DNA of 64,000 bases from the NCBI RefSeq assembly GCF_014647375.1, contig NZ_BMPB01000015.1, positions 1 to 64,000 on the forward strand, in the 5' to 3' direction. The position numbers and the translations under genes were made by a program. Origin of the DNA: Parabacteroides faecis (GTDB lineage: Bacteria > Bacteroidota > Bacteroidia > Bacteroidales > Tannerellaceae). Under the pieces are notes generated by a model. It was not told the origin of the DNA. It did not search any database and was given only the letters and a program-made list of their open reading frames with translations. Each line of letters begins with the position of its first letter. The stretch's first letter is position 1. Shown here one piece after another: positions 2,695-23,830 of this stretch.

Positions 2695-3092
2695 GGGGCT
2701 GACCGGTTTAGACAGCGGGCAGAAGTGGTTTGTAAGCATGTAGTGCGTGGTTGGCTTGCACTTAAATCTCAGACAACGAACAATTAACTGGCGAAAACAA
2801 TTACGCTCTCGCTGCTTAATCGAAGTATAGTAGATTCAAGCTTAATCCCTGCAAAAGTTGTGGGGACGTGACATCACCCGGATGCTGTTGCTCCGAAGCG
2901 TTCCGATCAGGTGGTGCAGCAATATCGGAGATAGTCTGAAATGAGCCTCGGGTTTCGGACGAAAATTTAGAGGATAAGGATTAAGTGGGTGGCTTCGGTC
3001 TTGCTTGATCCCGACAATCGAAGGCGAAGATAAACATGTAGAAAGCAGATTAGTTCCTCGTTTGGACGAGAGTTCGAATCTCTCCAGCTCCA
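2695..3092 (+). ncRNA. ssrA: Transfer-messenger RNA (tmRNA)
   Basis: tmRNA rescues stalled ribosomes and tags their products for proteolysis. The 5' GGGGCTG pairs with the 3' CAGCTCC to form the acceptor stem, with A3092 as discriminator. CCA is not encoded and must be added afterwards. The T-arm GTTCGAATC lies near the 3' end. The tag frame at 2790-2819 encodes GENNYALAA then TAA, starting at a GGC resume codon. The -7 box is 14 bases upstream and a strong hairpin follows. The whole one-piece molecule is present and looks intact. Confidence 0.97.
2790..2819 (+). other. tmRNA tag-peptide reading frame (GENNYALAA)
   Basis: Ten codons including TAA inside ssrA. The hydrophobic C-terminal end ALAA is the usual degron for ClpXP-type proteases. 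Confidence 0.93.
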
Positions 3093-3093
3093 C

Positions 3094-8442: not shown

Positions 8443-9654
8443 ATGAATAAACAAATGTTGAGAACTACTATTACCCAATTAAGGCAAATTGCGTTATTTG
8501 CAGTGGGAGTGTTTTTATTAACCGCCTGTGGAAACAGCCAGGGGGGTATGAAGTTAGGCGACAGTGAATATGCTGTAATGACCGTTAATTCTTCTTCTTC
8601 CGACCAGTCAACCTCTTACCCCGCGACCATCAGAGGTACGCAGGATATCGAAGTTCGTCCACAGGTATCAGGGTTTATTGTTAAGTTATGTGTTGATGAA
8701 GGGGCAACTGTGCGTAAAGGACAGGCCTTGTTTGAAATCGATCCGACACAGTATAAAGCCGCCTACAATCAGGCGAAAGCTGCGGTAGAGATGGCACAGG
8801 CAAATGTCAGTACGTTGGAGTTGACCGAGAAGAATAAGAAAGAGTTGTATAATAAGTCCATTATCAGCTCTTTTGAGTATCAGACCGCTGTCAACCAGCT
8901 TGCTTCGGCCAGAGCCACTTTGGCACAATCGGAAGCATCTAAGGTGAGCGCAAAACAAAATCTGGATTTTTGTACGGTAACCAGCCCATCCAACGGTGTT
9001 GTCGGAACTTTCCCGTATCGTATCGGAAGTTTGGTCAGTCCGTCTATCTCCAGTCCGATGACGACAGTTTCGGAGATCGGAGAGGTATATGTTTATTTCT
9101 CCATGACGGAAAAAGAATTGTTGCAGCTGACGAAGGCTGGCGGTACTTTGAAGGAACAATTGGATAAGATGCCGGCCGTTCAGTTACAATTGGCAGATGG
9201 TACTATGCTGGATGAAAAAGGAAAGATCGATGCTGTCAGCGGTGTGATCGACCAGTCTACCGGTTCGGTAAGTATGCGTGCCGTATTCCCCAATGACAAG
9301 AATATCCTGCGAAGCGGTGGTACGGGAAATGTTGTATTCCCTTATACAATGAATGACATCATTATGATCCCGCAGTCTGCTACGGTTGAAATCCAGGACA
9401 AGAAATTTGTATATGTGCTACAATCGGATAATACGATCAAGAATACGGAAATTCAGGTATCTCCTTTGAGCGACGGACAGGTTTACCTGGTGACCGGAGG
9501 ATTGAAGGCTGGCGACAAGATCGTTGTCGAAGGTGTCCAAAGTTTGCATGACGGTCAGGAAATTAAGCCAATCACTAAAAGCGAACAGGCTGAAAAATTT
9601 CAGCAGGCGATGAAAGACCAGAGCGAAGGAAATTTAAAAACAGCTTTTAATTAA
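8443..9654 (+). CDS. RND efflux periplasmic adaptor (AcrA/MexA-like lipoprotein)
   Basis: Membrane-fusion protein linking an inner-membrane RND pump to an outer-membrane channel, 403 residues. The signal ends at LLTAC (lipobox), so it is lipid-anchored in the periplasm. The biotinyl-lipoyl half-motif EVRPQVSGFIVKLCVDEGA is near residues 65-85 and the alpha-hairpin at about 100-170. The second lipoyl half (TVTSPSNGVVG) is near 180, followed by the beta-barrel and membrane-proximal domains. It is the first gene of a three-part efflux operon. Confidence 0.95.
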   Translation: MNKQMLRTTITQLRQIALFAVGVFLLTACGNSQGGMKLGDSEYAVMTVNSSSSDQSTSYPATIRGTQDIEVRPQVSGFIVKLCVDEGATVRKGQALFEIDPTQYKAAYNQAKAAVEMAQANVSTLELTEKNKKELYNKSIISSFEYQTAVNQLASARATLAQSEASKVSAKQNLDFCTVTSPSNGVVGTFPYRIGSLVSPSISSPMTTVSEIGEVYVYFSMTEKELLQLTKAGGTLKEQLDKMPAVQLQLADGTMLDEKGKIDAVSGVIDQSTGSVSMRAVFPNDKNILRSGGTGNVVFPYTMNDIIMIPQSATVEIQDKKFVYVLQSDNTIKNTEIQVSPLSDGQVYLVTGGLKAGDKIVVEGVQSLHDGQEIKPITKSEQAEKFQQAMKDQSEGNLKTAFN

Positions 9655-9714
9655 TTAAAGGTATAGAAAGAACCGGGTTCCCGTCCGATTCTTCCGTATA
9701 TAAAAAAGTAAAAT

Positions 9715-12700
9715 ATGAAATTAGATAGATTTATTAACCGTCCGGTGCTTTCAACGGTGATCTCCATCTTGATTGTCATCCTGGGTATATTAGGTTTGCT
9801 CACACTGCCTGTTACCCAATATCCGGACATTGCCCCCCCTACCGTTTCGGTACGGGCCACTTATACAGGTGCCAATGCGCAGACTGTATTGAATAGTGTG
9901 ATCGCACCTTTGGAAGACCAGATAAACGGGGTTGAGAACATGATGTATATGACATCCAATGCCTCGAACAATGGTTCTGCCGATATTTCCATATATTTTA
10001 AACAAGGAACAGACCCCGATATGGCGGCTGTCAATGTGCAGAACCGTGTATCTATGGCTCAGGGTCTGTTGCCCGCTGAAGTAACAAAGGTCGGTGTGAC
10101 GACCCAGAAACGTCAGAACTCCATGTTGATCGTTTTTGCCGTTTACGATGCAGAAGACCGTTACGATCAGAAGTTCCTTGAAAACTACGCAAAGATCAAC
10201 CTGATCCCGGAAGTACAACGTGTTCCTGGTGTGGGTGATGCTAACGTGTTGGGTACCGACTACTCTATGCGTATCTGGTTGAAACCGGATGTGATGGCAC
10301 AATACAAACTTGTACCTAACGATGTTTCCAACGTATTGGCAGAACAGAACGTGGAAGCAGCTCCGGGTTCTTTCGGCGAACAGGGAAATCAGACGTTCCA
10401 GTACACTATCCGTTATAAAGGACGTTTGCAGACGGCTGATGAGTTTGAGAATATTGTTGTAAAAGCTCTTGCCGATGGCGAGGTGCTCCGCCTGAAAGAT
10501 ATTGCCGACATTGAACTGGGACGTTTGACCTATAACTTTGTCAACAAAGTAAACGGACATAGCGCTGTTACCTGTATTGTTTACCAGATGCCTGGAACGA
10601 ATGCTACGGAGACTATCAATGAAATTCAGGAACTGTTGGTGAAATCGGAAAAGACGATGCCGCCGGGAATGAAGGTGGAAGTTTCCATGAATGCCAACGA
10701 CTTCCTGTATGCCTCTATCCATGAAGTGTTGAAGACCTTACTCGAAGCATTTATTCTGGTGTTTATCGTTGTTTATATCTTCCTGCAGGATTTGCGTTCG
10801 ACCTTGATTCCGGCTATTGCTATTCCGGTGGCCCTGATCGGTACCTTCTTCCTGTTGTCGTTGATCGGGTTTAGTGTAAACTTGCTGACACTTTGTGCGA
10901 TGGTGCTTGCCATTGCGATTGTGGTCGATGATGCGATTATCGTCGTCGAGGGGGTCCATGCCAAGTTGGACCAGGGTTATAAATCGGCGAAGCAGGCATC
11001 TATCGATGCGATGAGTGAACTTGGCGGTGCTATCGTTTCAATTACACTGGTGATGATGTCCGTGTTTATCCCTGTTAGTTTCATGGGAGGTACGGCCGGT
11101 ATATTCTACCGTCAGTTCGGTGTGACGATGGCTATTGCAATCGGTTTGTCAGCTTTGAATGCATTGACGCTGAGTCCGGCACTATGTTCTATCTTCCTGA
11201 AACCTCACGATGAACATGGCGAAAAGAAATCTACTTTTATATCCCGTTTCCATACCTCTTTCAATGTGGCATACGATTCGTTGCTGAAAGGTTATAAGAA
11301 GCGTGTCTTGTTTTTCATCCAGAAGAAATGGCTGGCATTTGGTACGGTAGCTGCTTCTATTGCATTGCTGATTTTCTTCATGCAGGTAACGCCGACCGGT
11401 ATGGTACCGAATGAAGATACGGGTACGATCATGGGAGCTGTGACATTGCCTCCGGGTACTTCTCAGGAACGTACGCAGGAAATCATGCAACGTGTCGATA
11501 GCCTGATCGCTTCCGATCCTGCAATTAAATCGCGTACGGCAATTACCGGTTTCAGTTTTATCGGTGGCCAGGGACCGTCTTACGGTTCTTTCATCATCAA
11601 ATTGAAGGACTGGGAAGAACGTTCGATGACACAAAGTTCGGATGTGGTTTATGCCAGTTTGTTTATGCGTGCCCAGAAAGTAATAAAAGATGCACAGGTT
11701 TTGTTCTTTACTCCGCCTATGATCCCGGGTTATTCGGCATCCAGCGATATCGAGTTGAACATGCAGGATAAGACAGGTGGTAGCCTGGATAGATTCTTCT
11801 CTGTTTCCAAAGAATATATGGCTGCATTGACGAATCGTCCGGAAATCAAATCGGCCCAGTCGACTTTCAATCCGAACTTCCCGCAGTATATGATCGATAT
11901 CGATGCGGCAGCTTGTAAGAAAGTTGGTATCAGTCCGAGCGATATTCTTTTGACTCTGCAAGGATATTATGGTGGTTTGTATGCCTCCAATTTCAACCGT
12001 TTCGGTAAGATGTACCGTGTAATGGTGCAGGCTGATCCTTCTATGAGAGCCAATATGGAGTCTTTGAAGAACATTAAGGTAAGGAACGGTGACGAAATGG
12101 CTCCGATCTCCCAATTCATTACGATCGAGAAAGTATATGGACCGGATATTATCAGCCGTTTCAATATGTACACCTCTTTGAAAGTGATGGTTGCCCCAGC
12201 CGAAGGTTTTACCAGCGGTCAGGCGTTGAAAGCAATCGAAGAAGTCGCAAGTACGTCACTTCCTACTGGTTTCGGTTATGAATTAGGAGGTATGGCCCGT
12301 GAAGAAGCGGAGACAAGCGGAAGCACAACCGGTCTGATCTTTATCCTTTGTTTCGTTTTCGTCTACCTGTTGTTGAGTGCACAGTATGAAAGTTACATTC
12401 TTCCGTTGGCGGTAATGCTTTCAATACCGTTTGGTTTGATGGGTAGCTTCCTGTTTGTACAAGGTTGGGCTGCTTTAGGTAGCATTCCGGCATTGAAGAT
12501 GATTCTGGGAACGATGTCGAACAACATTTATATGCAGATCGCATTGATCATGTTGATGGGTCTGTTGGCAAAGAACGCTATTTTGATCGTAGAGTTTGCT
12601 CTCGAACGTCGCCGTATGGGTATGAGTATTACCTGGGCTGCGGTATTAGGTGCTGCCGCTCGTCTGCGTCCGATCCTGATGACCTCTCTGGCAATGGTAG

Positions 12701-12930
12701 TCGGTTTGTTGCCTATGATGTTCGCTTTTGGTGTAGGTGCACACGGTAACCGTACTTTGGGTACTGCTGCTATCGGCGGTATGTTTGTCGGTATGGTCTT
12801 CCAGCTCCTCATCGTTCCGGCACTGTTCGTGGTCTTCCAGTACTTGCAGGAAAGACTGAAACCGATCGAATGGGAAGATCTGGACAACAGTGATCTGAAT
12901 ACGGAAATAGAACAGTACGCTAAAAAATAA
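9715..12930 (+). CDS. RND multidrug efflux pump (AcrB/HAE1 family)
   Basis: Proton-driven inner-membrane transporter, 1071 residues, the usual length for the family. It has the classic N-terminus MKLDRFINRPVLSTVISI, two large periplasmic loops and twelve predicted membrane helices in two halves. Proton-relay acids are visible in TM4 (IVVDDAIIVVEG, near residue 407) and the matching TM10 lysine in GLLAKNAILIVE. It follows the adaptor after 60 bases and precedes the outer-membrane factor by 11. Likely exports lipophilic drugs or bile salts; the substrate is not deducible. Confidence 0.97.
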   Translation: MKLDRFINRPVLSTVISILIVILGILGLLTLPVTQYPDIAPPTVSVRATYTGANAQTVLNSVIAPLEDQINGVENMMYMTSNASNNGSADISIYFKQGTDPDMAAVNVQNRVSMAQGLLPAEVTKVGVTTQKRQNSMLIVFAVYDAEDRYDQKFLENYAKINLIPEVQRVPGVGDANVLGTDYSMRIWLKPDVMAQYKLVPNDVSNVLAEQNVEAAPGSFGEQGNQTFQYTIRYKGRLQTADEFENIVVKALADGEVLRLKDIADIELGRLTYNFVNKVNGHSAVTCIVYQMPGTNATETINEIQELLVKSEKTMPPGMKVEVSMNANDFLYASIHEVLKTLLEAFILVFIVVYIFLQDLRSTLIPAIAIPVALIGTFFLLSLIGFSVNLLTLCAMVLAIAIVVDDAIIVVEGVHAKLDQGYKSAKQASIDAMSELGGAIVSITLVMMSVFIPVSFMGGTAGIFYRQFGVTMAIAIGLSALNALTLSPALCSIFLKPHDEHGEKKSTFISRFHTSFNVAYDSLLKGYKKRVLFFIQKKWLAFGTVAASIALLIFFMQVTPTGMVPNEDTGTIMGAVTLPPGTSQERTQEIMQRVDSLIASDPAIKSRTAITGFSFIGGQGPSYGSFIIKLKDWEERSMTQSSDVVYASLFMRAQKVIKDAQVLFFTPPMIPGYSASSDIELNMQDKTGGSLDRFFSVSKEYMAALTNRPEIKSAQSTFNPNFPQYMIDIDAAACKKVGISPSDILLTLQGYYGGLYASNFNRFGKMYRVMVQADPSMRANMESLKNIKVRNGDEMAPISQFITIEKVYGPDIISRFNMYTSLKVMVAPAEGFTSGQALKAIEEVASTSLPTGFGYELGGMAREEAETSGSTTGLIFILCFVFVYLLLSAQYESYILPLAVMLSIPFGLMGSFLFVQGWAALGSIPALKMILGTMSNNIYMQIALIMLMGLLAKNAILIVEFALERRRMGMSITWAAVLGAAARLRPILMTSLAMVVGLLPMMFAFGVGAHGNRTLGTAAIGGMFVGMVFQLLIVPALFVVFQYLQERLKPIEWEDLDNSDLNTEIEQYAKK

Positions 12931-12941
12931 GTGAGAAGACA

Positions 12942-14327
12942 ATGAAGAAAAATCAAGTTATATATATGATGTGTGCAACCGCTCTGCTGAGCAGTTGCCA
13001 CATTTACAAAGCATACGACCGTCCTGATACGATAGAGACCGCCGGTATTTACCGTGATCCGGTATCAGTAACGGACACCCTGGCTGCCGATACGACCAAT
13101 ATGGGAAATATACCCTGGACGGATATTTTCCGTGATCCGAAACTGCAGTCTTTGATTGAAGAAGGATTGGCAAACAATGTGGATATGCAGGCTGCAATTC
13201 TCCGTGTGGAAGAGTCGAAAGCGTTGCTGACAGCCGCCCGTTTATCTTTCCTGCCGTCTCTGAATCTGGCTCCGCAAGGTTCGACCACGACGATCGGAAG
13301 TTCCAGTTTTGCCAAAGCATATACCTTACCGGCAGCAGCAAGCTGGGAAGTCGATCTGTTCGGTAAGCTGCTGAATGCAAGCCGCGACCAGAAAACGATC
13401 TATCTGCAAAGCCAGTATTCACAGCAGGCAGTACGTTCACAGCTTATCAGCGGTATCGCCAATACCTATTTTACTTTGCTGATGCTCGATCGCCAGGTAG
13501 AGATTACAACAGAAACGGTCGATATCTATAAAGAAAATGTACGCGCGATGGAAGCTATGAAGGAGGCAGGTATGACCACCGAAGCAGCCGTTGTACAGAT
13601 GAAAGCCGTATACCATCAGGTTTCTTCTTCACTGATCAACCTGAAACGTCAGGTTCGTGAAGTAGAAAACTCATTGTCGGTACTGTTGGCGAAAGCCCCC
13701 CAGCAGATCGAACGTGGCAGATTGGAAGATCAATATATTCCGGAAGAACTGATGGCAGGTGTACCTTTGCAATTGCTGGAAAACCGTCCGGACGTGAAGA
13801 TCGCAGAAATGTCGCTTGCAAGCGCTTATTATACAACGAACAAAGCACGTGCTGCTTTCTATCCGGGGTTGAATATTACGGCTACTGCCGGTTGGACGAA
13901 TGGTTCAGGTATTACAGTTTCCAATCCGGGACAATTCATGTTCCAGGCATTGGCATCTCTTGCACAGCCAATCTTCAACAACGGCAAGCTGATGGCTAAC
14001 CTGAAAGTGTCGAAAGCGGAAGAGAAGATCGCTCAGATGAATTATCAGCAGGCTATCCTCCAGGCCGGAAAAGAGGTGAGCGACGCATTGCATCTGTACG
14101 ATGCAACCAATAAAATGCTGGTTCAGGATAAAGAACAGATCGCACAACTGGAAAAAGCTGTAGAATATACGAAAGCGTTGTTCCAGTCGGCTGAGTCCAC
14201 TTATCTGGAGATTCTGTCGGCCCAGCAGAGCCTTTTGAGTGCACAATTGACAGAAGTATCCGACAACGTTCAGCGTATGCAGGCTGTTATCAACCTGTAT
14301 AGTGCTGTAGGTGGAGGAAGAGAGTAA
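12942..14327 (+). CDS. Outer-membrane efflux lipoprotein (TolC/OprM-like, NodT type)
   Basis: Outer-membrane channel of the tripartite pump, 461 residues. The signal peptide ends with LLSSC (lipobox). The two repeated outer-membrane-efflux domains are recognisable from motifs such as PWTDIFRDPKLQSLIEEGL (near 59) and ENRPDVKIAEMSL (near 282). Long coiled-coil helices cover most of the sequence. Third gene of the efflux operon; lpxA-like follows after 23 bases. Confidence 0.95.
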   Translation: MKKNQVIYMMCATALLSSCHIYKAYDRPDTIETAGIYRDPVSVTDTLAADTTNMGNIPWTDIFRDPKLQSLIEEGLANNVDMQAAILRVEESKALLTAARLSFLPSLNLAPQGSTTTIGSSSFAKAYTLPAAASWEVDLFGKLLNASRDQKTIYLQSQYSQQAVRSQLISGIANTYFTLLMLDRQVEITTETVDIYKENVRAMEAMKEAGMTTEAAVVQMKAVYHQVSSSLINLKRQVREVENSLSVLLAKAPQQIERGRLEDQYIPEELMAGVPLQLLENRPDVKIAEMSLASAYYTTNKARAAFYPGLNITATAGWTNGSGITVSNPGQFMFQALASLAQPIFNNGKLMANLKVSKAEEKIAQMNYQQAILQAGKEVSDALHLYDATNKMLVQDKEQIAQLEKAVEYTKALFQSAESTYLEILSAQQSLLSAQLTEVSDNVQRMQAVINLYSAVGGGRE

Positions 14328-15142: not shown

Positions 15143-15178
15143 ACGAGGATATCTGCATAGGTATCCTCGTTTTTTTTG
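15143..15178 (+). terminator. Terminator of the efflux-lpxA operon
   Basis: A 9-bp perfect stem (15143-15151 with 15162-15170) is followed by a long T run, just after the acyltransferase stop codon. Confidence 0.93.
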
Positions 15179-15246
15179 TCTTTACCCGGGCCATTAACCG
15201 ATGAACTATCGGTTGTCTTACTAAAAACTAATTTTTATTATATGAT

Positions 15247-15395
15247 AAACTATTTCCCGGTATATTACAAACTATTTATATGCTGTAGTACTAATGTCTG
15301 ATATGTTGTACACCTTATATGTGATATCCTGTACTACTTATATGCGATAAGGTGTACAAGGTATGTATAGTTTGTTATATACCAGGAAATAGTTT
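15247..15395. repeat. Nested inverted-repeat element with internal direct repeats
   Basis: Outer arms of 28 bases (15247-15274 and 15368-15395) match at 26 positions as inverted repeats. Inside, a perfect 13-bp inverted repeat (TTGTACACCTTAT at 15306-15318 with 15347-15359) encloses a further GTAGTAC/GTACTAC pair (15285-15291 and 15331-15337). The word TTATATG recurs roughly every 20-23 bases and each copy leads into a GTAC-containing core. A separate 7-bp inverted repeat sits at 15196-15214. This could be a fold-back element or a clustered protein-binding site. No ORF is present in 15122-15566. Confidence 0.8.
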
Positions 15396-15566
15396 CCCGT
15401 TTGTCTGAAGATACTTTCCTGTAATGTGAGTAATACTTGTTATGTAACTTCTGAATGGCATATTTATATGAATATGTATGGAGAGCTTGAAAATAAAAGT
15501 CTATCTTTAGGAGGATGATTAAGAAAATGAAGTATAACTGTACAATCTGATATAAAAAGTAAATCC

Positions 15567-15968
15567 ATGAGTATAAGGTATAAATTTACTCCTATTTATG
15601 ACAATCTGAATAAGGAAGGGGAGAAAGTAAAAGGGTATTATCCGCAAGTTGTCAGTCGCGGAACAATTCATAAAGATAAGTTATTCGACCATATTTCGCA
15701 TGGTTCGGCACCGCTTCGGGCGGAGTTATCCCGTTCGTGGATGCTGATAGAAGATTCCATAATCGAGCTATTGGAAGAGGGCTTTGACGTTTGTCTGAAT
15801 GATTTCGGGACTTTCTCTGTTTCAGCCGAAAGTCGCTTTGTAGAAAAGAAGAACGAGATACGTGCCGAGTCGATCACTGTAAAAGGGCTTAACTTTCGTA
15901 CTTCCAAAGCGATCAACAGAAAACTGAAGAAGGCAAAGTTTGAACGCGATCCGGAAAATGGATATTGA
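15567..15968 (+). CDS. HU-like DNA-binding protein (HU-HIG type)
   Basis: A 133-residue basic protein related to HU/IHF but with an N-terminal extension (YKFTPIYDNLNKEGEKVKGYYP), as in the Bacteroidetes HU-HIG group. The HU-like core includes LSRSWMLIEDSIIELLEEG and the strand LNDFGTFSVSAES. The C-terminal tail is lysine/arginine-rich. The canonical 90-residue HU is encoded separately at 47127-47399. It lies 170 bases downstream of the nested inverted repeat, which is a plausible binding target, though that link is inference. Confidence 0.82.
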   Translation: MSIRYKFTPIYDNLNKEGEKVKGYYPQVVSRGTIHKDKLFDHISHGSAPLRAELSRSWMLIEDSIIELLEEGFDVCLNDFGTFSVSAESRFVEKKNEIRAESITVKGLNFRTSKAINRKLKKAKFERDPENGY

Positions 15969-16004
15969 ATAGGATGCAAGAAGATTCGTTTCTTTGTAAG
16001 GTAT

Positions 16005-16373
16005 TCAAATATCGTTGTTCTTTTTATATATCAATAATAGTAAGGTAACAAAGAACAGGAAAATATTCATTACTAATGATCGTAATATGATTGTATTACT
16101 TTCGTTGCTTTCTGTATATATATCCCTAAAGTAGTTAATTGCTGTACTGGATACAAAAGAAAGAAGCAACCAGATGATATATTCAAGATAGAGTATTTTG
16201 TTTTTTCTTTTGCACCGTGTATAAATGATAATGAAAAAGAACCAATATGAAGTACTTTCAATTGCATAGAAGAATTGAGCTTCAAACCCAAAGAATAAGT
16301 TTTTAGCGAAACTTAGAATTAATATTCCAATAAAGAATATTGTTGTAGGTAATATATATCTATTCATAGACAT
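16005..16373 (-). CDS. Small four-helix membrane protein, unknown
   Basis: A 122-residue hydrophobic protein with four predicted membrane helices and a KKNN tail. Not recognised. A second start Met is at residue 3. It is the last gene of the AT-rich minus-strand cluster and resembles the other small membrane protein of the cluster (19677-20048) in length and layout rather than in obvious sequence. Small four-helix proteins next to peptide-like genes sometimes confer immunity, but nothing in this sequence proves that. Confidence 0.65.
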   Translation of the reverse strand: MSMNRYILPTTIFFIGILILSFAKNLFFGFEAQFFYAIESTSYWFFFIIIYTRCKRKNKILYLEYIIWLLLSFVSSTAINYFRDIYTESNESNTIILRSLVMNIFLFFVTLLLLIYKKNNDI

Positions 16374-16453
16374 TTGTTTTTGCTTTTTGATACTCTATAA
16401 AACTCTCTAATATATATAAATTGATTGAGTATAAGAAAATATAGAAAAGAATA

Positions 16454-17920
16454 TTACCATATTATGATGTTATTATCGTATGTAAAGATTCTTCCTTTTA
16501 ACCTGAAATTTCTTTTATCTAATATTGTATATATAGTATTTGATGGAACTTGATGTGCATTGAATCCTGTATTTTTATTTTCTGAAATAGGAATTGAACT
16601 CCAATGGCTAATGTTCCAGTAAGCCAATTCATAATTATCAATATTGTCTATAATGTGAATTTTTGATAGATATTGGGTGAGATTAATATCTACCTTACTC
16701 TCATTGTTTATTTTATATTTTCTGATATTACCGAGAAAGTCTACCGAAAGAGGACTGTCAATTGCTTTTATTCCATTGTAATTTGTTTTAGTGATTGGTA
16801 AATATATAATAGATCGTCCCATATTATGAAAAAGGTATAACTGTTTTTCAAATAGACTTCCTTTAGAGATTTCTTTCCATTTATTATTATTGTATACTGC
16901 CAAATAGACCTCTTCGGGTATAGATTTTATTGAAATTCTGATATCTGTTGTTGGTATATAATTGTTTGTTACATCTATATAATTGTTATTGTCGAATTGT
17001 TCAGTATTACTTGATTCTGTTATTGAATATATTTGTCTAAATATTTTAGGTGGATGGGCGGCTAGCCAATTTCCTGTTTGTAGCATTACAGGGTTGCAGC
17101 ATTCATCGAAATAGACAACTTCTGTATGGCCATTATCTGTACTTCCCCATAATGGGATATAGTCCTTAGTTGATGCTATACCCATAGATCGTAATGCTAA
17201 TACTATAATATCGGCTATAATGGAACAATTACCTTTTTGGTAATAGAGAATTTCTTTATAATCTAATGAGGGTTTAAGATTTAAAGCATCACAGGAGTAA
17301 GATATTTGCTTATTTATATCTTTAATGATTAATTGGGAGATGTTTTTTATTGTTTTCTCATTTTTCATACTATCAATCATTGGTTTATATCGTTTTATAA
17401 AGAATGATCTCCAGTCTACTAGATTTTCTTTATTTATTCTATATGGAAGGATATATTCATAAAATATACTTTTTGTATATCCCTTAGACCATGGGAAGTT
17501 TTCCCATGCATAAAATGCGTAGTCACAATTTTCTATTAAATATTGAGCATTAATGTGTTCCATATCATTTATGGAATCTATCTCTAAATGAAAGTTTAAA
17601 GAGTCTAATATAGATTGATAATTATTCTTATCTATATGTGTATCAAATAAACAGAAATTATTCTTTCTGTTTAATGTATCTTTGACTATTAATTTGTAAG
17701 AATATTTATTCTTCATATTCTTGATTAGAAATAGTACAGCATTGTATTTTTTGTTGTCGTTTTTATAGTGCTTTAAAACTTTCTTTAGCTCTTTATTGTT
17801 TCTGCTATAAGATAGTATACTGTAATTGTTGTTTAATGTATTAATTGTACAAATTGATATTGTTATAGATAATAATACTATAAGTGTTTTTTTATTTGTT
17901 GTATATTGAAATGATTTCAT
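16454..17920 (-). CDS. Transglutaminase-like cysteine-protease-fold protein
   Basis: A 488-residue protein with an N-terminal signal/anchor helix (residues about 11-30). The transglutaminase-like core shows GNCSIIADIIVLALRSMGI with Cys232 and NGHTEVVYFD with His265; Asp272 or a nearby residue could complete a triad. Upstream is the YEYILPYR...DWR segment seen in Bacteroidetes members of the family. A beta-rich C-terminal half follows. It is probably anchored in the envelope with an outward-facing catalytic domain. Its start overlaps the end of the ligase-like gene by 29 bases, so the two were translationally linked. The substrate is unknown; cross-linking or proteolysis of an envelope protein is possible. 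Confidence 0.82.
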   Translation of the reverse strand: MKSFQYTTNKKTLIVLLSITISICTINTLNNNYSILSYSRNNKELKKVLKHYKNDNKKYNAVLFLIKNMKNKYSYKLIVKDTLNRKNNFCLFDTHIDKNNYQSILDSLNFHLEIDSINDMEHINAQYLIENCDYAFYAWENFPWSKGYTKSIFYEYILPYRINKENLVDWRSFFIKRYKPMIDSMKNEKTIKNISQLIIKDINKQISYSCDALNLKPSLDYKEILYYQKGNCSIIADIIVLALRSMGIASTKDYIPLWGSTDNGHTEVVYFDECCNPVMLQTGNWLAAHPPKIFRQIYSITESSNTEQFDNNNYIDVTNNYIPTTDIRISIKSIPEEVYLAVYNNNKWKEISKGSLFEKQLYLFHNMGRSIIYLPITKTNYNGIKAIDSPLSVDFLGNIRKYKINNESKVDINLTQYLSKIHIIDNIDNYELAYWNISHWSSIPISENKNTGFNAHQVPSNTIYTILDKRNFRLKGRIFTYDNNIIIW

Positions 17921-19610
17921 TTGCTTCTTCTTTTATTTTTAGTGTTGTGTAAGATGGTATTTTGATCTTAAAATCTTTGATTAACTTGGCGGTTTTTATC
18001 ATTTCATTTTTTTTATTGTATTCTTTGTATAATAGCATTAACTGATATAAAGGAAATATTCTGTTTGGAACCATTTTAAATGCATGTATATAGCAGTTTT
18101 GAGCATTGTTGAAATTATTAGTGTTTTTATAGTTGTTTCCTTTTAGTATCCAAATGAACGAAGTGTTCATATGTTTTAATACTTTTTCGAAATAAATATT
18201 ACTTTCCTCATTTTTATTACAGTTAGATAATATAACCGCGTAATCATATAGAAATAGAGTGTCATATTTTAATTTATCTTCAATCGAATTGTAAATTAAA
18301 AGTTTTTCTTTATCAGGTATTGAAGTCTTTTTTGATTCTTGCCAAATAGTGTAAGCATAATTCCTGTTAATTGTCGTGTTTATAATTTCAAAGTAGCAAA
18401 TCGCTAATGATATAATTATTAATTTATGATGTGTTCTGTTGAATGAAAGCAAAAATCTCTTATCAAAAGATGCTAATATACCTGTAAAGGTTGTTATTGT
18501 TAATAATGTTTCAACCCTTCTGAGTGGATAACTAAATAGTGAAAGAAGAAAAATAGATAGTATTGTATATTTTACAGGAGAGACGATGAATTTATTTTTT
18601 TCATTTTTAATCGTAAATAAGTATATTGTGAAAACGAAGGTTAATATTATACCAATTATTCCATATTCTGCTCCTATTTGTAGTATTTCATTGAATCCAT
18701 ATTTTGTGTTGTCAGCAAATTTTATGTATTTACTGTCAGGGTTCTTTTTAAAGTAGGTCATTTGATATTCCGGATATATAGAATAAAATGTATTATAACC
18801 AAAACCAGATATAGGTCTGTTGAATATCATATTTGTAGTTATTTTGTATATAAGAATTCGGCCATCTACCGAATCTTTTCTATGGTTAATTAGATTATAT
18901 AATGAGAATATGCTAAGTAAGATTATTATTGGAGCAAAAATAATAGATTGTTTGAGGTTTATTTTTTTGATATATTCTATAAATGAATTACTATTGTTGC
19001 AGTAAATTAGTATACTGCATGTTAATACTGATAGAATACCATTTCTTGAATCTGTTAGGAATATAGTAAGAATGATTGGAAGTAATAGTATTCCAAATAT
19101 TATTTTATGTATAGTATTACTGTTTAGAAGTAAATAAAATCCGATAGGATAGGTTATAGCTAAATATATACCTGTTATACCTGAGTTTCCCATTATACCG
19201 ATTAAAGGCATTGTATAATTATTGACAATTGACATGACAGCATGAATGGTGCTTATCGATATGATTAGTCGTAAAATGTTAATATTCCATTTTGTTTTTG
19301 ATATTGAGTAAAATAAGATAAGATAGGAAATTATTGTATAAGTGTCTTTTTCCCAATTGTTTATATGTGAAGTGATATAAACAATTCCTATGATAATATA
19401 GATGTCGTATATCTGTATATGTATTTTGTTTTTGGATAATAAATGGGGTAATATGAGAATTGCACAGGTACTAAAAACTAATATTTCTTTTATGTATATG
19501 TAATTTGTTCTATTTGATATTAAAGGAAATAAAAATAGTAAGCTTGCTAATGTTAGATTAGTAAAGATCTCAGTATTCTATTTTTGTTGAAAATTGAATC
19601 TCTTTCTCAT
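17892..19610 (-). pseudogene. O-antigen ligase/polymerase-like protein with C-terminal TPRs, interrupted by an amber codon
   Basis: From the ATG at 19610 the frame reads ten codons (MRKRFNFQQK), then TAG at 19578-19580. It then stays open for 561 more codons to 17892. The segment after the stop (19577-19236) has no ATG but encodes plausible hydrophobic helices, so it is part of the gene. From the internal ATG at 19235 a 447-residue product remains. It has several helices, the Wzy/WaaL-type loop (SRNGILS; RPISGFGYNTF; GFNEILQIGAEYGIIG) and two or three TPR-like repeats near the C-terminus. Intact, it would be about 572 residues. It is either truncated by about 125 residues, dead, started from a non-ATG codon, or affected by a sequencing error. 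The TPR end suggests contacts with a partner, perhaps the neighbouring transglutaminase-like protein. Confidence 0.72.
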
Positions 19611-19628
19611 TGAAAATAATATAATCTT

Positions 19629-19668
19629 AGAATTAGCCTATTCAACTAAGATGTAATAGGCTAATTCT
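19629..19668 (-). terminator. Strong hairpin between the small membrane gene and the ligase-like gene
   Basis: A perfect 14-bp stem (19629-19642 with 19655-19668) and a 12-base loop lie 9 bases after one stop codon and 19 bases before the ATG of the broken ligase gene. The T run is weak (AAGATTATATTATTTT follows), so it may be an attenuator or a stabilising 3' hairpin rather than a full terminator. Confidence 0.6.
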
Positions 19669-19676
19669 GATAATAA

Positions 19677-20048
19677 CTACTTTTTTATTTTATATTTCAC
19701 AATACCTACTACAATTAATATGATTGTAAAAGTTAAGAATATTGCTTCTATATTGGATAATATATAGTTTTTATTTAGATTATTCACTATGTTTGATTTA
19801 TAAAATATCAATGACTGTATAATATAGAATATAAATGAAAAGGAATAAAATTCTTTATATATAATCTGTTTTTTTTGTATGTATCTAGAAGTACAAATGA
19901 AAAAAAATAGACAAGGCCATGATAACATAAGACTCCTATAAATGAGATTTGTTAAATCTTTACTACCTCCTTCTATTATTAAATTGGATAGAAAGAAGAA
20001 TGCATATATAAGAATGGCAAATAAAATCCATTTTAAAATATATTTCAT
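19677..20048 (-). CDS. Small four-helix membrane protein, unknown
   Basis: A 123-residue protein with four predicted membrane helices and a lysine-rich tail (KYKIKK). No motif recognised. It starts 10 bases after the stop of the glycine-zipper lipoprotein, so the two are almost certainly co-transcribed. That spacing fits a toxin/immunity or substrate/partner pair, but this is only suggestive. Confidence 0.65.
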   Translation of the reverse strand: MKYILKWILFAILIYAFFFLSNLIIEGGSKDLTNLIYRSLMLSWPCLFFFICTSRYIQKKQIIYKEFYSFSFIFYIIQSLIFYKSNIVNNLNKNYILSNIEAIFLTFTIILIVVGIVKYKIKK

Positions 20049-20058
20049 TTTGTTCTAT

Positions 20059-20835
20059 TTAAAATATTTTGTGTGCAGCTTCTGTTCCAGAAGCTATACA
20101 TCCTCCGCCAATAGCACCGGGACCAGCTCCTATACCACCTATACTAGCTCCTCCAAGAGCGCCTAAGGCAGCACCAATAGCATCTTCTTTTGCAATATCC
20201 CATACACCATCCCAAAAGCCTTCTTCCGGATCTCCGCTTTTAGTTGTTATAGTTTTTTGTTGAGATTTATTTATCCCTAAAATATTTACTCTCCATTTTT
20301 CTAAATTTTCATTCCAGTATATTGCAGAATAGCGTGCAACAGAACAACCACAGAGAATAGGAAAACATTCATTTTCTCCAAGATTATTATTTTGTAGTAT
20401 TTCGTTTTCAAGTTCTATGATGTTGTTTGTAACAGTTTTTATATCAGCCTCTTTTGGTACTGTTAAAATGTCAATTAAACGAATAAGATAGTCTTTTTGA
20501 AGATTAGATATTGGAACATCAGAGAAATTGAGAGAATCAGGAAAAGTATCGTTATATGCAGATTTTGTAATCTGTTTATTGAGTAGTTCTTTCTTTTTCA
20601 TAAAGGAAATAGTCGTTTTTTTGATATACTGGATATCAAAAAATTTTGTTCCTGATTTCGTTTTGGGTAGTTTGATTATTTCATTTAAAATATAATCCAT
20701 ACCTTCATTGTGGAGTTGTCCTATATAATCCTGAGGATTGTTAGAAACTTTACTTTCTTGGTCAAATATTGATTGGCAAGAGAATAAAATGGCTGTAATT
20801 AGCAGCGAAGTAAGTAGGTAATAACTTTTTTTCAT
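20059..20835 (-). CDS. Lipoprotein with glycine-zipper C-terminal tail
   Basis: A 258-residue predicted lipoprotein: hydrophobic signal ending in LFSC (Cys20), then a mostly helical, lysine/asparagine-rich middle. A small cysteine cluster (CFPILCGC) is near residues 154-161. The last about 40 residues are glycine- and alanine-rich with regular spacing (IGAALGALGGASIGGIGAG), preceded by an aromatic stretch (GFWDGVWDIA). This tail resembles class II bacteriocins and glycine-zipper membrane domains. I do not recognise the full-length family. It is first in its operon and divergent from the sensor kinase gene across 125 bases, so the two-component system is a likely regulator. Confidence 0.75.
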   Translation of the reverse strand: MKKSYYLLTSLLITAILFSCQSIFDQESKVSNNPQDYIGQLHNEGMDYILNEIIKLPKTKSGTKFFDIQYIKKTTISFMKKKELLNKQITKSAYNDTFPDSLNFSDVPISNLQKDYLIRLIDILTVPKEADIKTVTNNIIELENEILQNNNLGENECFPILCGCSVARYSAIYWNENLEKWRVNILGINKSQQKTITTKSGDPEEGFWDGVWDIAKEDAIGAALGALGGASIGGIGAGPGAIGGGCIASGTEAAHKIF

Positions 20836-20960
20836 ATTATTAAATTTTAATGTGTGACAAAATTACTGGTGATGGCTATAATGTATTCTAACTATTATCT
20901 CATAATTGAATAATCATTGATATTTATTTTAGTTATATTTGCATTCATATCAAGATATCT
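20836..20960. promoter_or_regulatory. Divergent promoter region between the lipoprotein and the two-component system
   Basis: Toward the minus strand, the complement of 20858-20865 reads TAATTTTG, a -7 box 23-30 bases before the lipoprotein ATG. Toward the plus strand, TATATTTG at 20934-20941 is a -7 box about 20 bases before the kinase ATG. No convincing -33 boxes or response-regulator direct repeats were found. Confidence 0.5.
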
Positions 20961-22118
20961 ATGAAAGGTGCAACCTTTGTTCTTCTTTTAGGGTTCCTGT
21001 CAATTATTTTGAATCAGGGAATCTGGATTCATAATATGAAGAAGACATATTATGAAGATTATTCTCTTTTGTTTAATAACTTGCTGAATATTAGTATTCA
21101 ACGAGATGATCAGGATTCTTTGTCTGTTAATTTGGAGAAAGTGGATATAAGTTTGAAAAAACATTTGGAAGAAGCTAACCTTATGCTCCCTTATAAATTA
21201 GAGTTGTGTAAAAATGAACGGATAATTAATACGGTTGGGAATTATGTGGAAAAAGCAGATGATTATATTTATCTGTCTCCACGGATAGCAATTTCAGATT
21301 CTTTATTTTTATGCTGTTCTGCCATTATTCCTTCTTCGTTTATCATAGGAAAAATGAAGAGAATTAATGATATATCATGTTGGGCAATGATATTTAGTAT
21401 TGCATGTTTGATTTATTTGCTGCTAAATATCATGAAAAAGGAAAAGAAGTTGAAATCAAATGCTTTAGCAATATATGGAACTATACATGATTTGAAATCA
21501 CCTTTAAGTTTGACTTATTTACTTATTTCAAGATTTGCCGGAAAGGAAAGTGATCATGTAAAGAAACAATCTTTTCTGGCATGTAAAGCACAATTATATA
21601 CGTTGAGTAATGCTATAGAGACACTATTGTCTGTTTTGAAAATGACTGACCAACACGTCTCTATAAAAAAGGAACCTGTCGATTTGCGTGGGTTGATAGA
21701 TTCTATTATTGAAAATTTATCAGTACTTTACTTTAATAAGCATTTTACACTATTGATAGAAGATAAAATGGAAACAGATTGGATTGAAGCAGATCTTTTT
21801 TATCTGAGGAATAGTCTTACAAACTTGTTAGATAATTCATTAAAGTATTCTGATGAAAATGTAAAGATAGAAATTCTTCTTGAAAAGAGGTTGGATACTT
21901 TTTCTATTGCTATAAAAGATACAGGTTGGGGAATTTCCGGAAAGCTTCGGAAAAAACTTTTTGCACAATGTTGTAGAGGTGATCGACATGACCAGCCAAA
22001 GGGACATGGACTCGGATTGATGTATACAGCCCGGGTTGTAAAGAATATGGGGGGAGATCTTACTTTCCAAAGTGTAGAAGGAGAAGGTAGTACATTTATT
22101 ATAACATTACCATGTTGA
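20961..22118 (+). CDS. Membrane sensor histidine kinase
   Basis: A 385-residue kinase with two membrane helices (about 5-24 and 138-157) framing a roughly 110-residue extracytoplasmic sensor. The dimerisation/phosphoacceptor box is TIHDLKSPLSL with His176, followed by the N box (LTNLLDNSLKYS), a G1 box (DTGWGIS) and a G2 box (KGHGLGL). All catalytic elements are present. It overlaps the response-regulator gene by 7 bases, so they form one operon. The sensed signal is unknown. The divergent lipoprotein suggests an envelope or peptide signal. Confidence 0.93.
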   Translation: MKGATFVLLLGFLSIILNQGIWIHNMKKTYYEDYSLLFNNLLNISIQRDDQDSLSVNLEKVDISLKKHLEEANLMLPYKLELCKNERIINTVGNYVEKADDYIYLSPRIAISDSLFLCCSAIIPSSFIIGKMKRINDISCWAMIFSIACLIYLLLNIMKKEKKLKSNALAIYGTIHDLKSPLSLTYLLISRFAGKESDHVKKQSFLACKAQLYTLSNAIETLLSVLKMTDQHVSIKKEPVDLRGLIDSIIENLSVLYFNKHFTLLIEDKMETDWIEADLFYLRNSLTNLLDNSLKYSDENVKIEILLEKRLDTFSIAIKDTGWGISGKLRKKLFAQCCRGDRHDQPKGHGLGLMYTARVVKNMGGDLTFQSVEGEGSTFIITLPC

Positions 22119-22816
22119 ATTCAGATAAAATAATAAAAGTGATTGTTTTTGACGATGATATTTTGTTGGGAAATATGATCGTATCTATTTTGAAAGAAGA
22201 GAAAATGGAGGCTGTTTACCAATCCTCTTTATATGGGGCAAAGGAAGCTGTCCTCTCTTTTGAGCCGGATATAATTGTGTTAGATGTCGAGATGGGGGAG
22301 GATAGTGGGATTGACTTTGCCTCCGAGATGCAATCCAGGGGGATTACAACTCCTATATTATTTGTGTCTTCACATGTTAGAGGATATGAGGTTGCCCAAG
22401 GCATACAAGCCGGAGGGAAAGTGTATATTAAAAAGCCTTTTGATATGGAAGAACTTATTGTCTATATTCGGCAATATGCTTGTTCTTCTTCTGGGCATTC
22501 TCATTTGATCAATTTTGGCAGATTACAATTAAATAAAGAAACTCGTGACCTATTTTTGGAAAATAGATTAATAAAGAAGCTTAGCAAGATTGAATACCAG
22601 ATATTATTATTGTTGATAGAAAAACAGGGTGAAGTAGTTCCTCGCAGCCGTTTTTTTAAGGAGATTTGGGATGATTGTGATATTTATGATGCTAGCTTGA
22701 ATAATTTTATATCCAAATTGAGAGCCTTTTTACTTTTAGATGATAGTCTGACTATAAGAACATTACCAGATATAGGATATATGCTTTTTATCGATGAACG
22801 GAACGGGAACAATTGA
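22112..22816 (+). CDS. OmpR-family response regulator
   Basis: A 234-residue regulator. The receiver domain (about 8-120) has an acidic pocket FDDD near 13-16, the phosphoacceptor Asp58 in VLDVEM, and the conserved Lys in KKPF. A winged-helix DNA-binding domain follows (about 135-228; LSKIEYQILLLLIEKQGEVV...SLNNFISKLR). Partner of the preceding kinase; likely targets are the divergent lipoprotein promoter and its own promoter. Confidence 0.93.
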   Translation: MLNSDKIIKVIVFDDDILLGNMIVSILKEEKMEAVYQSSLYGAKEAVLSFEPDIIVLDVEMGEDSGIDFASEMQSRGITTPILFVSSHVRGYEVAQGIQAGGKVYIKKPFDMEELIVYIRQYACSSSGHSHLINFGRLQLNKETRDLFLENRLIKKLSKIEYQILLLLIEKQGEVVPRSRFFKEIWDDCDIYDASLNNFISKLRAFLLLDDSLTIRTLPDIGYMLFIDERNGNN

Positions 22817-22835
22817 AATACTTCCCGTTCCGTTT
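22797..22835 (+). terminator. Terminator overlapping the response-regulator stop codon
   Basis: A 13-bp inverted repeat AACGGAACGGGAA ... TTCCCGTTCCGTT begins inside the last codons of the gene and ends with a short T run. Confidence 0.8.
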
Positions 22836-22881
22836 GTAATTTGATGTCTGCCTGAAATCTATATCAGATTACATGGTTTGA

Positions 22882-23191
22882 CTAAAGCAAGTCATATAAC
22901 GATTGCAAGTAATTACGTACTTCTTTGAAGCGTTTTTTGCGAACGTAGGATAAATATAATGCAATGGATACCGTAATCAGTACCACAATTAATGTGAACA
23001 AAATGATTGTTCCGTGTAGGATATAATTCCGTATGATAAAGACTCCTACGATAAAGAGAGTTAGTCCGATGCTGATGTAGGTATCATATTTCTTTTGGTA
23101 AGCGATGCTTTTATCGATGTAGATTTACCTTGTGGATGATACCCTGGTAGTCGGACAGTATCCTGAGGAAATCTTCATGCGACTGTTTCAT
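22882..23191 (-). pseudogene. Deletion scar: ECF sigma factor start joined to the end of a membrane protein
   Basis: From the ATG at 23191 the minus strand encodes MKQSHEDFLRILSDYQGIIH and six more codons, then TAA at 23113-23111. This is the typical beginning of a Bacteroidetes ECF sigma factor. In another frame, from about 23124 to the TAG at 22884-22882, it encodes IDKSIAYQKKYDTYISIG followed by two membrane helices and a basic tail ending in LYDLL. This looks like the C-terminal part of the small membrane protein often encoded beside such sigma factors. The rest of both genes is missing, so a deletion of several hundred bases probably fused them. Neither fragment should be functional. Confidence 0.7.
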
Positions 23192-23278
23192 ACTGAATGT
23201 TTTTTATTGAACTGTACTATATAGTCGTTGAAGCAGGTAATTTCTTACAAGATATGGAGAATTTAATTTTATACTGGG

Positions 23279-23764
23279 TCATTCAAGTATTAGTTCATAA
23301 TCGGCAACGTCCAGCCATCGGTTGAATTTCCGTCCAACCTCATGAAAGTGGGATACCTGTTTGAAGTCCAGTCTCTCATGGAGTTTCACACTCGGCTCGT
23401 TGGGGATAGTGATACAGGCGATCAGTGCATGGTAGGAACGTTTGCGGCAGTCTTCGATCAGTTGTTCCATTAATATTCTTCCGTATCCTTTCCTGAGATG
23501 GTCCGGATGCAGGTAAATGGTCGTTTCTGCGGTGCTGCTGTAGGCTTTCTTCGTTTTCCATTCATGGGCGTAACAATAGCCTGCTATTTTACCTTCTTCC
23601 ACGCAGACCCAGGCAGGACAGTTCCCGATAATAGGCAGCAGGCGTTCGCGCATCTCTGTTTCAGACGGGACTTTTGTGTCGAAAGTCACAACGGTATTAT
23701 TTACGTAGTGGGCATAGATGCAGGTTATCTCACTCACATCGTTCAATGTCATCGGGCGTATCAT
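23279..23764 (-). CDS. GNAT-family N-acetyltransferase (phosphinothricin acetyltransferase-like)
   Basis: A 161-residue cytoplasmic acetyltransferase. The acetyl-CoA-binding motif is LRKGYGRILM (about 90-99). The N-terminal IRPMTLNDVSEITCIYAHYV and the C-terminal LDFKQVSHFHEVGRKF segments are typical of the Pat/Bar/MnaT group. These acetylate amino-acid-like amines such as methionine sulfone or phosphinothricin. The natural substrate here is unknown. Single gene. Confidence 0.9.
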   Translation of the reverse strand: MIRPMTLNDVSEITCIYAHYVNNTVVTFDTKVPSETEMRERLLPIIGNCPAWVCVEEGKIAGYCYAHEWKTKKAYSSTAETTIYLHPDHLRKGYGRILMEQLIEDCRKRSYHALIACITIPNEPSVKLHERLDFKQVSHFHEVGRKFNRWLDVADYELILE

Positions 23765-23789
23765 GATTCTTTTTTGTGTAAAGTTAATG

Positions 23790-23830
23790 ATAAAAATAAA
23801 AAGAGGATAACTCCGTGGAGCTATCCTCTT
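23790..23830 (-). terminator. Terminator of mdh
   Basis: A near-perfect hairpin (AAGAGGATA at 23801-23809 with TATCCTCTT at 23822-23830, plus an inner CTCC/GGAG). On the minus strand it is followed by TTTTTATTTTTA. It lies 30 bases after the malate dehydrogenase stop. Confidence 0.9.

Follow-up and report, generated by a model that had tools for sequence, protein, structure and literature searches.

An AT-rich gene island of Parabacteroides faecis with a glycine-zipper lipoprotein: a possible surface-anchored antagonism locus

What could be the role of a gene island in which a two-component system faces a lipoprotein with a glycine-zipper tail, two small membrane proteins and two enzyme-like proteins? 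We studied this question for a stretch of 64,000 nucleotides of Parabacteroides faecis (assembly GCF_014647375.1, contig NZ_BMPB01000015.1, positions 1 to 64,000 of the forward strand), called the window below; the genome carrying it has 6.66 Mb. The island covers positions 15990-22830 with a GC content of 0.282 compared to 0.418 for the remaining window (1-kb windows outside the island: mean 0.418, standard deviation 0.040, minimum 0.317), which agrees with the abrupt change to AT-rich DNA described in an earlier note made from the sequence alone. On the minus strand the order is lipoprotein, a first small protein with four predicted transmembrane spans (4-TM protein), Wzy_C/TPR protein, transglutaminase-fold protein and a second 4-TM protein; the genes for a sensor kinase and a response regulator lie on the plus strand. 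The complete gene set was found nowhere else in the genomes compared. Our tentative interpretation is an inducible antagonism locus with a surface anchor, which would consist of two modules plus the two-component system.

The lipoprotein and its small membrane partner

The lipoprotein (258 amino acids (aa), 20059-20835, minus strand) carries a lipobox with Cys20, an HNxGL motif (H42, N43), a YW motif (W174) that closes the core, D218 and a zipper tail at about residues 206-258. In the tail we counted 13 small-xxx-small-xxx-small patterns compared to 6.3 in shuffles of the same tail (p 0.005), and 7 GxxxG motifs compared to 3.7 (p 0.03), so the bacteriocin-like glycine-zipper tail of the earlier note stands. 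The AlphaFold2 model is helical and ends in a helical hairpin (residues 207-232 and 237-257; pLDDT 80.5, pTM 0.77); it has no convincing relative among solved structures. Neither the window lipoprotein nor the few relatives scanned had a Pfam or NCBIfam match above cut-off. A single-sequence scan of the window lipoprotein with the glycine-zipper Pfam families gave no match at E up to 1, and its sole Pfam match in this range was DUF6861 (E 0.31).

A search with the single lipoprotein sequence detected matches in 13 of 393 genomes of the order at E up to 3e-4, its own genome included, and in 51 at the looser E up to 0.1, many of these being doubtful. Profile A1, which was built from the single-sequence matches, gave 2 of 124 family genomes (Bacteroidaceae) at 1e-4 and 23 of 385 class genomes at 1e-6, the own genome again included. 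Within the genus the lipoprotein occurs in 1 of 39 genomes, that is in the window itself, and a wider genome-contig scan using the lipoprotein sequence alone gave no matches. All 14 rows of alignment A1 have M1, C20, H42, N43, W174 and D218; G39, H42, N43, W174 and D218 are kept in at least 90% of a wider set of 31 members. Judged by these comparisons, the lipoprotein is a member of an unnamed, patchily distributed Bacteroidota family.

The first 4-TM protein (123 aa, 19677-20048, minus strand) starts 10 bp downstream of the lipoprotein gene and is our candidate for an immunity protein. It had no Pfam family above cut-off and matched only its own copies among 1060 small open reading frames (ORFs) from the loci compared. 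We counted a gene as a partner if it lay on the same strand within 300 bp downstream and encoded a protein of less than 260 aa with at least two hydrophobic spans. By this rule a small membrane gene came next in 18 of 44 family members compared to 22 of 294 control genes, which were ORFs of at least 100 aa from the same loci (Fisher p 5.8e-8). The sample derives from 69 hits of a hidden Markov model, of which 47 were left after merging those with identical first/last 60 residues and 44 had at least 400 bp downstream; some of these members are remote, with E values reaching 1e-3. Among the 18 positives are the window, five array cassettes and L125, a partial ORF at a contig edge (L and G numbers denote loci and genomes), and L185 was scored negative despite an overlapping 4-TM gene directly after it. 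With the window and the arrays excluded and duplicate controls removed, the counts were 12 of 38 and 18 of 273 (p 3.6e-5). Seven partners in relatives have two transmembrane spans and show 9-17% identity to the first 4-TM protein with no confident alignment.

Tandem cassettes of the family occur in two metagenome-assembled genomes of uncultured Bacteroidia, G942 and G1099 (contigs CALLNY010000086 and CALLMJ010000121/137), and a genome-contig scan with one array protein gave matches only in these two. Across the ten pairs of five cassettes the core is identical at 72/75 to 46/46 aa (97-100% for the DNA). The zipper tails are far less alike: between unlike cassettes 18-24 residues are identical in alignments of 52-65, and each tail is followed by a different small membrane protein. 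One tail (57/58) is common to both genomes together with its partner (93/93). As far as can be judged from these sequences, the arrays have the layout of polymorphic toxin/immunity systems, in which exchangeable tips would be matched by cognate immunity; we have seen it only in the G942/G1099 lineage, outside the window's own branch.

Several known systems offer themselves for comparison. Class II bacteriocins combine a zipper-type hydrophobic tail and a small membrane partner with a double-glycine leader and a C39 exporter. The window lipoprotein resembles them in its tail and its partner, but it has a lipoprotein signal (Cys20) in place of the double-glycine leader, and the island holds no C39 exporter. 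Caulobacter Cdz, according to the available part of the source, has glycine-zipper proteins on the producer surface, a small transmembrane immunity protein and a compact locus; however, the Cdz toxins have 84-86 aa and a type I system in the same locus (PMC5380434). Pfam scans of the island proteins and ten neighbouring ORFs (7486-32100; ORFs below 60 aa and a few neighbours unscanned) gave no type I or ABC exporter. The pump at 8443-14327 is of RND type (ACR_tran), and seven relatives also carry the greater part of it. The myxobacterial SitA/SitI pair, in the part of the source available, likewise has a lipobox-anchored toxin, an adjacent immunity gene, a variable C-terminus and a location near mobile elements, whereas SitA tails are mostly nuclease-like and delivered by outer-membrane exchange and the window tail is a predicted zipper hairpin (PMC5562445). 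The lipoprotein and its 4-TM neighbour best resemble a putative contact toxin with its immunity protein that would work like Cdz or SitA. For this pair we infer, from the partner enrichment and the arrays, the bacteriocin-like role that the earlier note had put forward.

Some further loci deserve mention. In L170:1459-3116 (G901) two tandem paralogous zipper lipoproteins lie 137 bp apart with no small membrane gene between them. In L120:4084-7826 (G795) an ABC exporter of the peptidase-C39 bacteriocin type is followed after ~0.7 kb by a zipper lipoprotein, and in L181:1105-9828 (G929) lanthipeptide LanB dehydratase and LanC cyclase genes share the stretch with two family members that lack a signal peptide.

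The Wzy_C/TPR and transglutaminase-fold genes

Both enzyme-like genes that the earlier note had named are present. The first (17892-19577, minus strand, an open frame of 561 aa) encodes a membrane protein of the O-antigen ligase family with C-terminal TPR; Wzy_C (PF04932) matched with E 5.7e-13 and 49.3 bits (cut-off 31.7), TPR_8 with E 3.2e-5 and 24.2 bits, just below its cut-off of 25.7. It overlaps by 29 bp with the second (16454-17920, minus strand, 488 aa), for which Transglut_core reached 22.7 bits, just short of the cut-off of 23. This protein has the transglutaminase-like superfamily fold and keeps the catalytic Cys232 and His265; a by-eye reading of the sequence found no clear counterpart of the third, acidic catalytic residue after His265, and the CBM62-like C-terminal region of many relatives is absent.

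The Wzy_C domain raises an alternative explanation, namely that the island modifies the envelope without killing: the Wzy_C protein would act like an O-oligosaccharyltransferase, the lipoprotein would be its substrate, and the transglutaminase-fold and 4-TM proteins would be accessories. With the limit set at E 0.01, WaaL (7tpg) and an oligosaccharyltransferase (9rmk) were the only related structures of the domain, and two arginines are invariant across 15 aligned Wzy members (the window keeps R178 and R240). Furthermore, a pilin target gene lies at or near 21 of 31 PglL candidates in the available part of PMC3643930. The same part gives Arg, Arg and His as the triad of the ligases (R215, R288 and H338 in E. 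coli WaaL), of which the window has both arginines but carries Phe295 at the position of the histidine. Phe also stands there in 36 of the 44 members with a readable motif. This tally covers 50 of 75 Wzy hits with duplicates removed (36 F, 4 H, 2 Y, 1 M, 1 Q and 6 unreadable, the latter including a shorter copy of the window Wzy; the Q row is probably an unrelated protein). A change of this histidine to alanine served as the inactive PglS control in the available part of PMC12800693. The branch of the window thus shares the sequence family and two conserved arginines with WaaL and PglL and differs from them in its predominant Phe, its TPRs and its frequent transglutaminase-fold neighbour. As an account restricted to surface modification also leaves the small membrane partner and the cassette arrays unexplained, we consider it unlikely. 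The missing histidine poses a biochemical question of its own: what, if anything, does this Wzy branch transfer?

A Wzy protein that does keep the histidine lies in L074:7799-13777 (G197) beside short exported peptides with a near-identical leader and differing tails, possibly another cassette-type family.

Relatives of the transglutaminase-fold protein (E up to 1e-5) occur in 115 of the 124 Bacteroidaceae genomes, including a longer, distant kind of ~900 aa, and relatives of the Wzy/TPR protein (1e-20) in 45. Among the matches listed, a transglutaminase-fold gene was found within 8 kb of 42 of 70 Wzy positions, a raw count with no chance expectation that is based on 100 transglutaminase positions (weaker rows left out). 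On these sequence matches the two genes form a module of their own that is common in Bacteroidaceae.

The neighbours of this pair vary. A peptide of the NVEALA kind was present in 19 of 38 stretches bearing the transglutaminase-fold gene, where NVEALA-like means the motif N[VTAI]EAL in ORFs below 130 aa and not the Pfam model, and many of the 38 loci are on short contigs. The window genome has four other Wzy copies, of which one in L008 and two in L009 lie in loci with NVEALA peptides and signal peptidase I genes; the fourth, in L007, lies in a locus without NVEALA. Eight NVEALA matches were detected in this genome at E up to 0.1, none of them on the window's contig. The NVEALA clusters of Bacteroidaceae (PF14055) have the Wzy/TPR and transglutaminase families side by side as the island does, but the window's contig lacks the peptide, and among the island genes we recognised neither a signal peptidase nor one of beta-propeller type. 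The term beta-propeller-type for lipoproteins of these clusters is our reading together with one weak NHL-type match; another such protein had no Pfam match. The literature searched held neither the name NVEALA nor a paper fitting the Wzy/transglutaminase module.

Other small proteins accompany the pair elsewhere. In L133 (G071) Wzy stands with a 91-aa membrane protein and a different lipoprotein, which has a zipper-like hydrophobic stretch, and the transglutaminase-fold gene lies opposite. In L136 (G084) both enzyme genes are accompanied by an 86-aa membrane protein and a lipoprotein whose hydrophobic tail is rich in Cys and Gly. A comparable order is seen in L007, where the enzyme pair has yet another lipoprotein and a membrane protein of 98 aa beside it. 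Conversely, we compared the neighbourhoods of 31 lipoprotein-family loci (window included, stretches of 3.4-20 kb) and encountered the transglutaminase-fold gene in two of them, the window and L116, and Wzy in the window only. A single conserved gene set was not borne out: rare co-occurrence in other genomes, which the earlier note had named as grounds for refutation, applies to the complete set, so that its interpretation is supported in part. The window lipoprotein is one neighbour of the enzyme pair and not its fixed partner. The pair apparently travels with varied small exported proteins, and it best resembles a putative maturation module.

Opposite the NVEALA clusters there is often a gene for a predicted two-span membrane protein (L041:12995-14050, L042:762-1814 and others among L040-L059). 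The C-terminus of this protein is similar to a winged-helix regulator, with Trans_reg_C just below cut-off in L041 and no match in L042.

The two-component system and the proposed mechanism

The membrane sensor histidine kinase (385 aa, 20961-22118, plus strand; HATPase_c 9.4e-20) is followed by an OmpR/PhoB-type response regulator (234 aa, 22112-22816, plus strand; Response_reg 1.5e-18, Trans_reg_C 3.1e-12), and all three Pfam matches are above cut-off. As the earlier note had described, the pair is divergent from the lipoprotein gene, with a control region of 125 bp in between (20836-20960). Promoter-like matches in this region were not commoner than in shuffled sequence. Among the 124 family genomes, 7 besides its own matched the sensor half of the kinase weakly (E 4e-7 to 0.01). 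In locus L129 a kinase/regulator pair is likewise divergent from the lipoprotein-family gene.

SlyB is a glycine-zipper protein of the PhoP regulon. The window lipoprotein could be a SlyB-like protein of the stress response that places its zipper hairpin in the outer membrane of the producer itself and is controlled by the two-component system; its lipobox, the modelled C-terminal hairpin and the divergent kinase/regulator pair would fit. The failure of the glycine-zipper Pfam families to match in the single-sequence scan, the patchy distribution (2 of 124 family genomes) and the cassette arrays, which are unexpected for a housekeeping stress protein, make this explanation quite improbable.

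The antagonism locus that we tentatively prefer would work as follows. Module A would comprise the lipid-anchored toxin and the 4-TM protein directly behind it: the zipper hairpin of the lipoprotein would insert into the membranes of touching cells, and the 4-TM protein in the inner membrane would protect the producer. Module B would comprise the Wzy_C/TPR and transglutaminase-fold proteins and perhaps the second 4-TM protein. It may act in the periplasm on exported small proteins by cutting, linking or decorating them before display; elsewhere it often lies beside NVEALA peptides, and in the island it would serve the lipoprotein. Expression of the island would be under the control of the divergent two-component system. 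Each module recurs in other genomes. We base this proposal on the partner enrichment, the cassette arrays, the zipper patterns above those of shuffled tails and the hairpin model, together with the comparable neighbourhoods in L133, L136 and L007, the proximity of both enzyme genes among the matches listed and the divergent kinase/regulator pair of L129.

A broader claim, which we regard as doubtful, is that the Bacteroidota have here a class of polymorphic toxins not described before, which combine a lipid anchor with exchangeable glycine-zipper tails and are each matched by a membrane immunity protein. In this view the Wzy protein without the ligase histidine and the transglutaminase-fold enzyme would together mature small antagonistic proteins of the exported kind in general, the NVEALA peptides among them. 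If true, Bacteroidota would gain a contact weapon built on a lipid anchor and a zipper tail, of which none was described in the literature searched (titles and abstract openings of a partial collection), and a widespread nameless enzyme pair as well as the NVEALA peptides would gain a role.

Several observations weigh against an antagonism locus. No dedicated secretion system was recognised in the island. By our rule 26 of the 44 family members have no small membrane gene, and in L115, the nearest relative that we found for the window, the tail ranks with the more strongly conserved regions. The polymorphic pattern comes from one lineage and partly from metagenome contig ends, the available parts of the array proteins show no lipobox, and two of the array membrane partners (155 and 171 aa) may be related (39/136). 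For module B, the two enzyme genes are as rare in the family loci as described above, with the L116 copy of the transglutaminase-fold gene in two open pieces, and the other 19 of the 38 transglutaminase loci lack an NVEALA-like peptide. Finally, module B may be inactive, as the Wzy frame has an early in-frame stop. The likely original start (19578-19610, minus strand) consists of an ATG, nine further codons and a TAG as codon 11, so that part of the island may be broken. The ORF that starts with an ATG (17892-19235) has 447 aa and is without the first 114 residues of the open frame. The gene may have been disrupted recently, may start elsewhere or may be misassembled.

It is nevertheless quite improbable that the whole island consists of decaying, non-functional AT-rich remnants, as this stop and the absence of close copies of the island proteins in the relatives searched might suggest, since the remaining frames are intact, the transglutaminase-fold protein keeps its Cys and His, and the Wzy frame stays open for 561 codons past the stop, which points to a recent change, an assembly error or a bypass via another start.

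The insertion site and minor features

We compared the flanks of the island by blastn with eight genomes of the same genus. Both flanks, an acyltransferase and a malate dehydrogenase gene named from Pfam matches, are present in seven of them; for the eighth (L213) the stretch compared has the right flank only. In four relatives (L214-L217) the acyltransferase side and the malate dehydrogenase are only 0.5-1.3 kb apart. Three others (L210-L212) have 11.8-14.3 kb of different genes between the same flanks; L210, scanned as an example, has an ECF sigma factor, a TonB-dependent receptor and a SusD protein among them. In the window, positions 15177-23793 have no blastn match at the site in the seven relatives with both flanks, except for an acetyltransferase gene (23279-23764) that is matched in one. 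The site is thus short or differently filled in seven of eight relatives and hence variable, and the window holds about 8.7 kb there. Together with the AT-richness and the occurrence of the lipoprotein family in just 2 of 124 Bacteroidaceae genomes this indicates that the island was probably acquired laterally, as the earlier note had supposed.

Neither an integrase nor an attachment site came to light. We detected 41 families of direct repeats; the 20 examined were imperfect and none was an obvious attachment site. A phage or plasmid origin was rejected: for five island proteins every PHROG match had an E value of at least 0.025, although the search did not extend to the plasmid and phage collections. 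A single match to PADLOC (E 0.024) was put down to chance.

The tightly spaced run reported earlier holds for the gap of 10 bp after the lipoprotein gene, for the overlap of the two enzyme genes and for the 80 bp between the transglutaminase-fold gene and the second 4-TM gene, but not for the interval between the first 4-TM gene and the Wzy frame, which holds a long hairpin at about 19627-19671 (-23.4 kcal/mol over a 91-nt stretch, folding z -4.18). This hairpin had no Rfam match and was not called by terminator prediction. The second 4-TM protein (122 aa, 16005-16373, minus strand) has, like the first, four hydrophobic spans, in line with the two small 4-helix proteins noted before. The idea that the two are paralogues was rejected (E 0.061 over only 20 residues).

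At the left edge of the island lies a gene for an HU-HIG DNA-binding protein (15567-15968) that had no blastn match in the relatives compared and has a host-like GC content of 0.418. No tRNA gene was found in the window; it carries one tmRNA gene (2695-3093) with the tag GENNYALAA.

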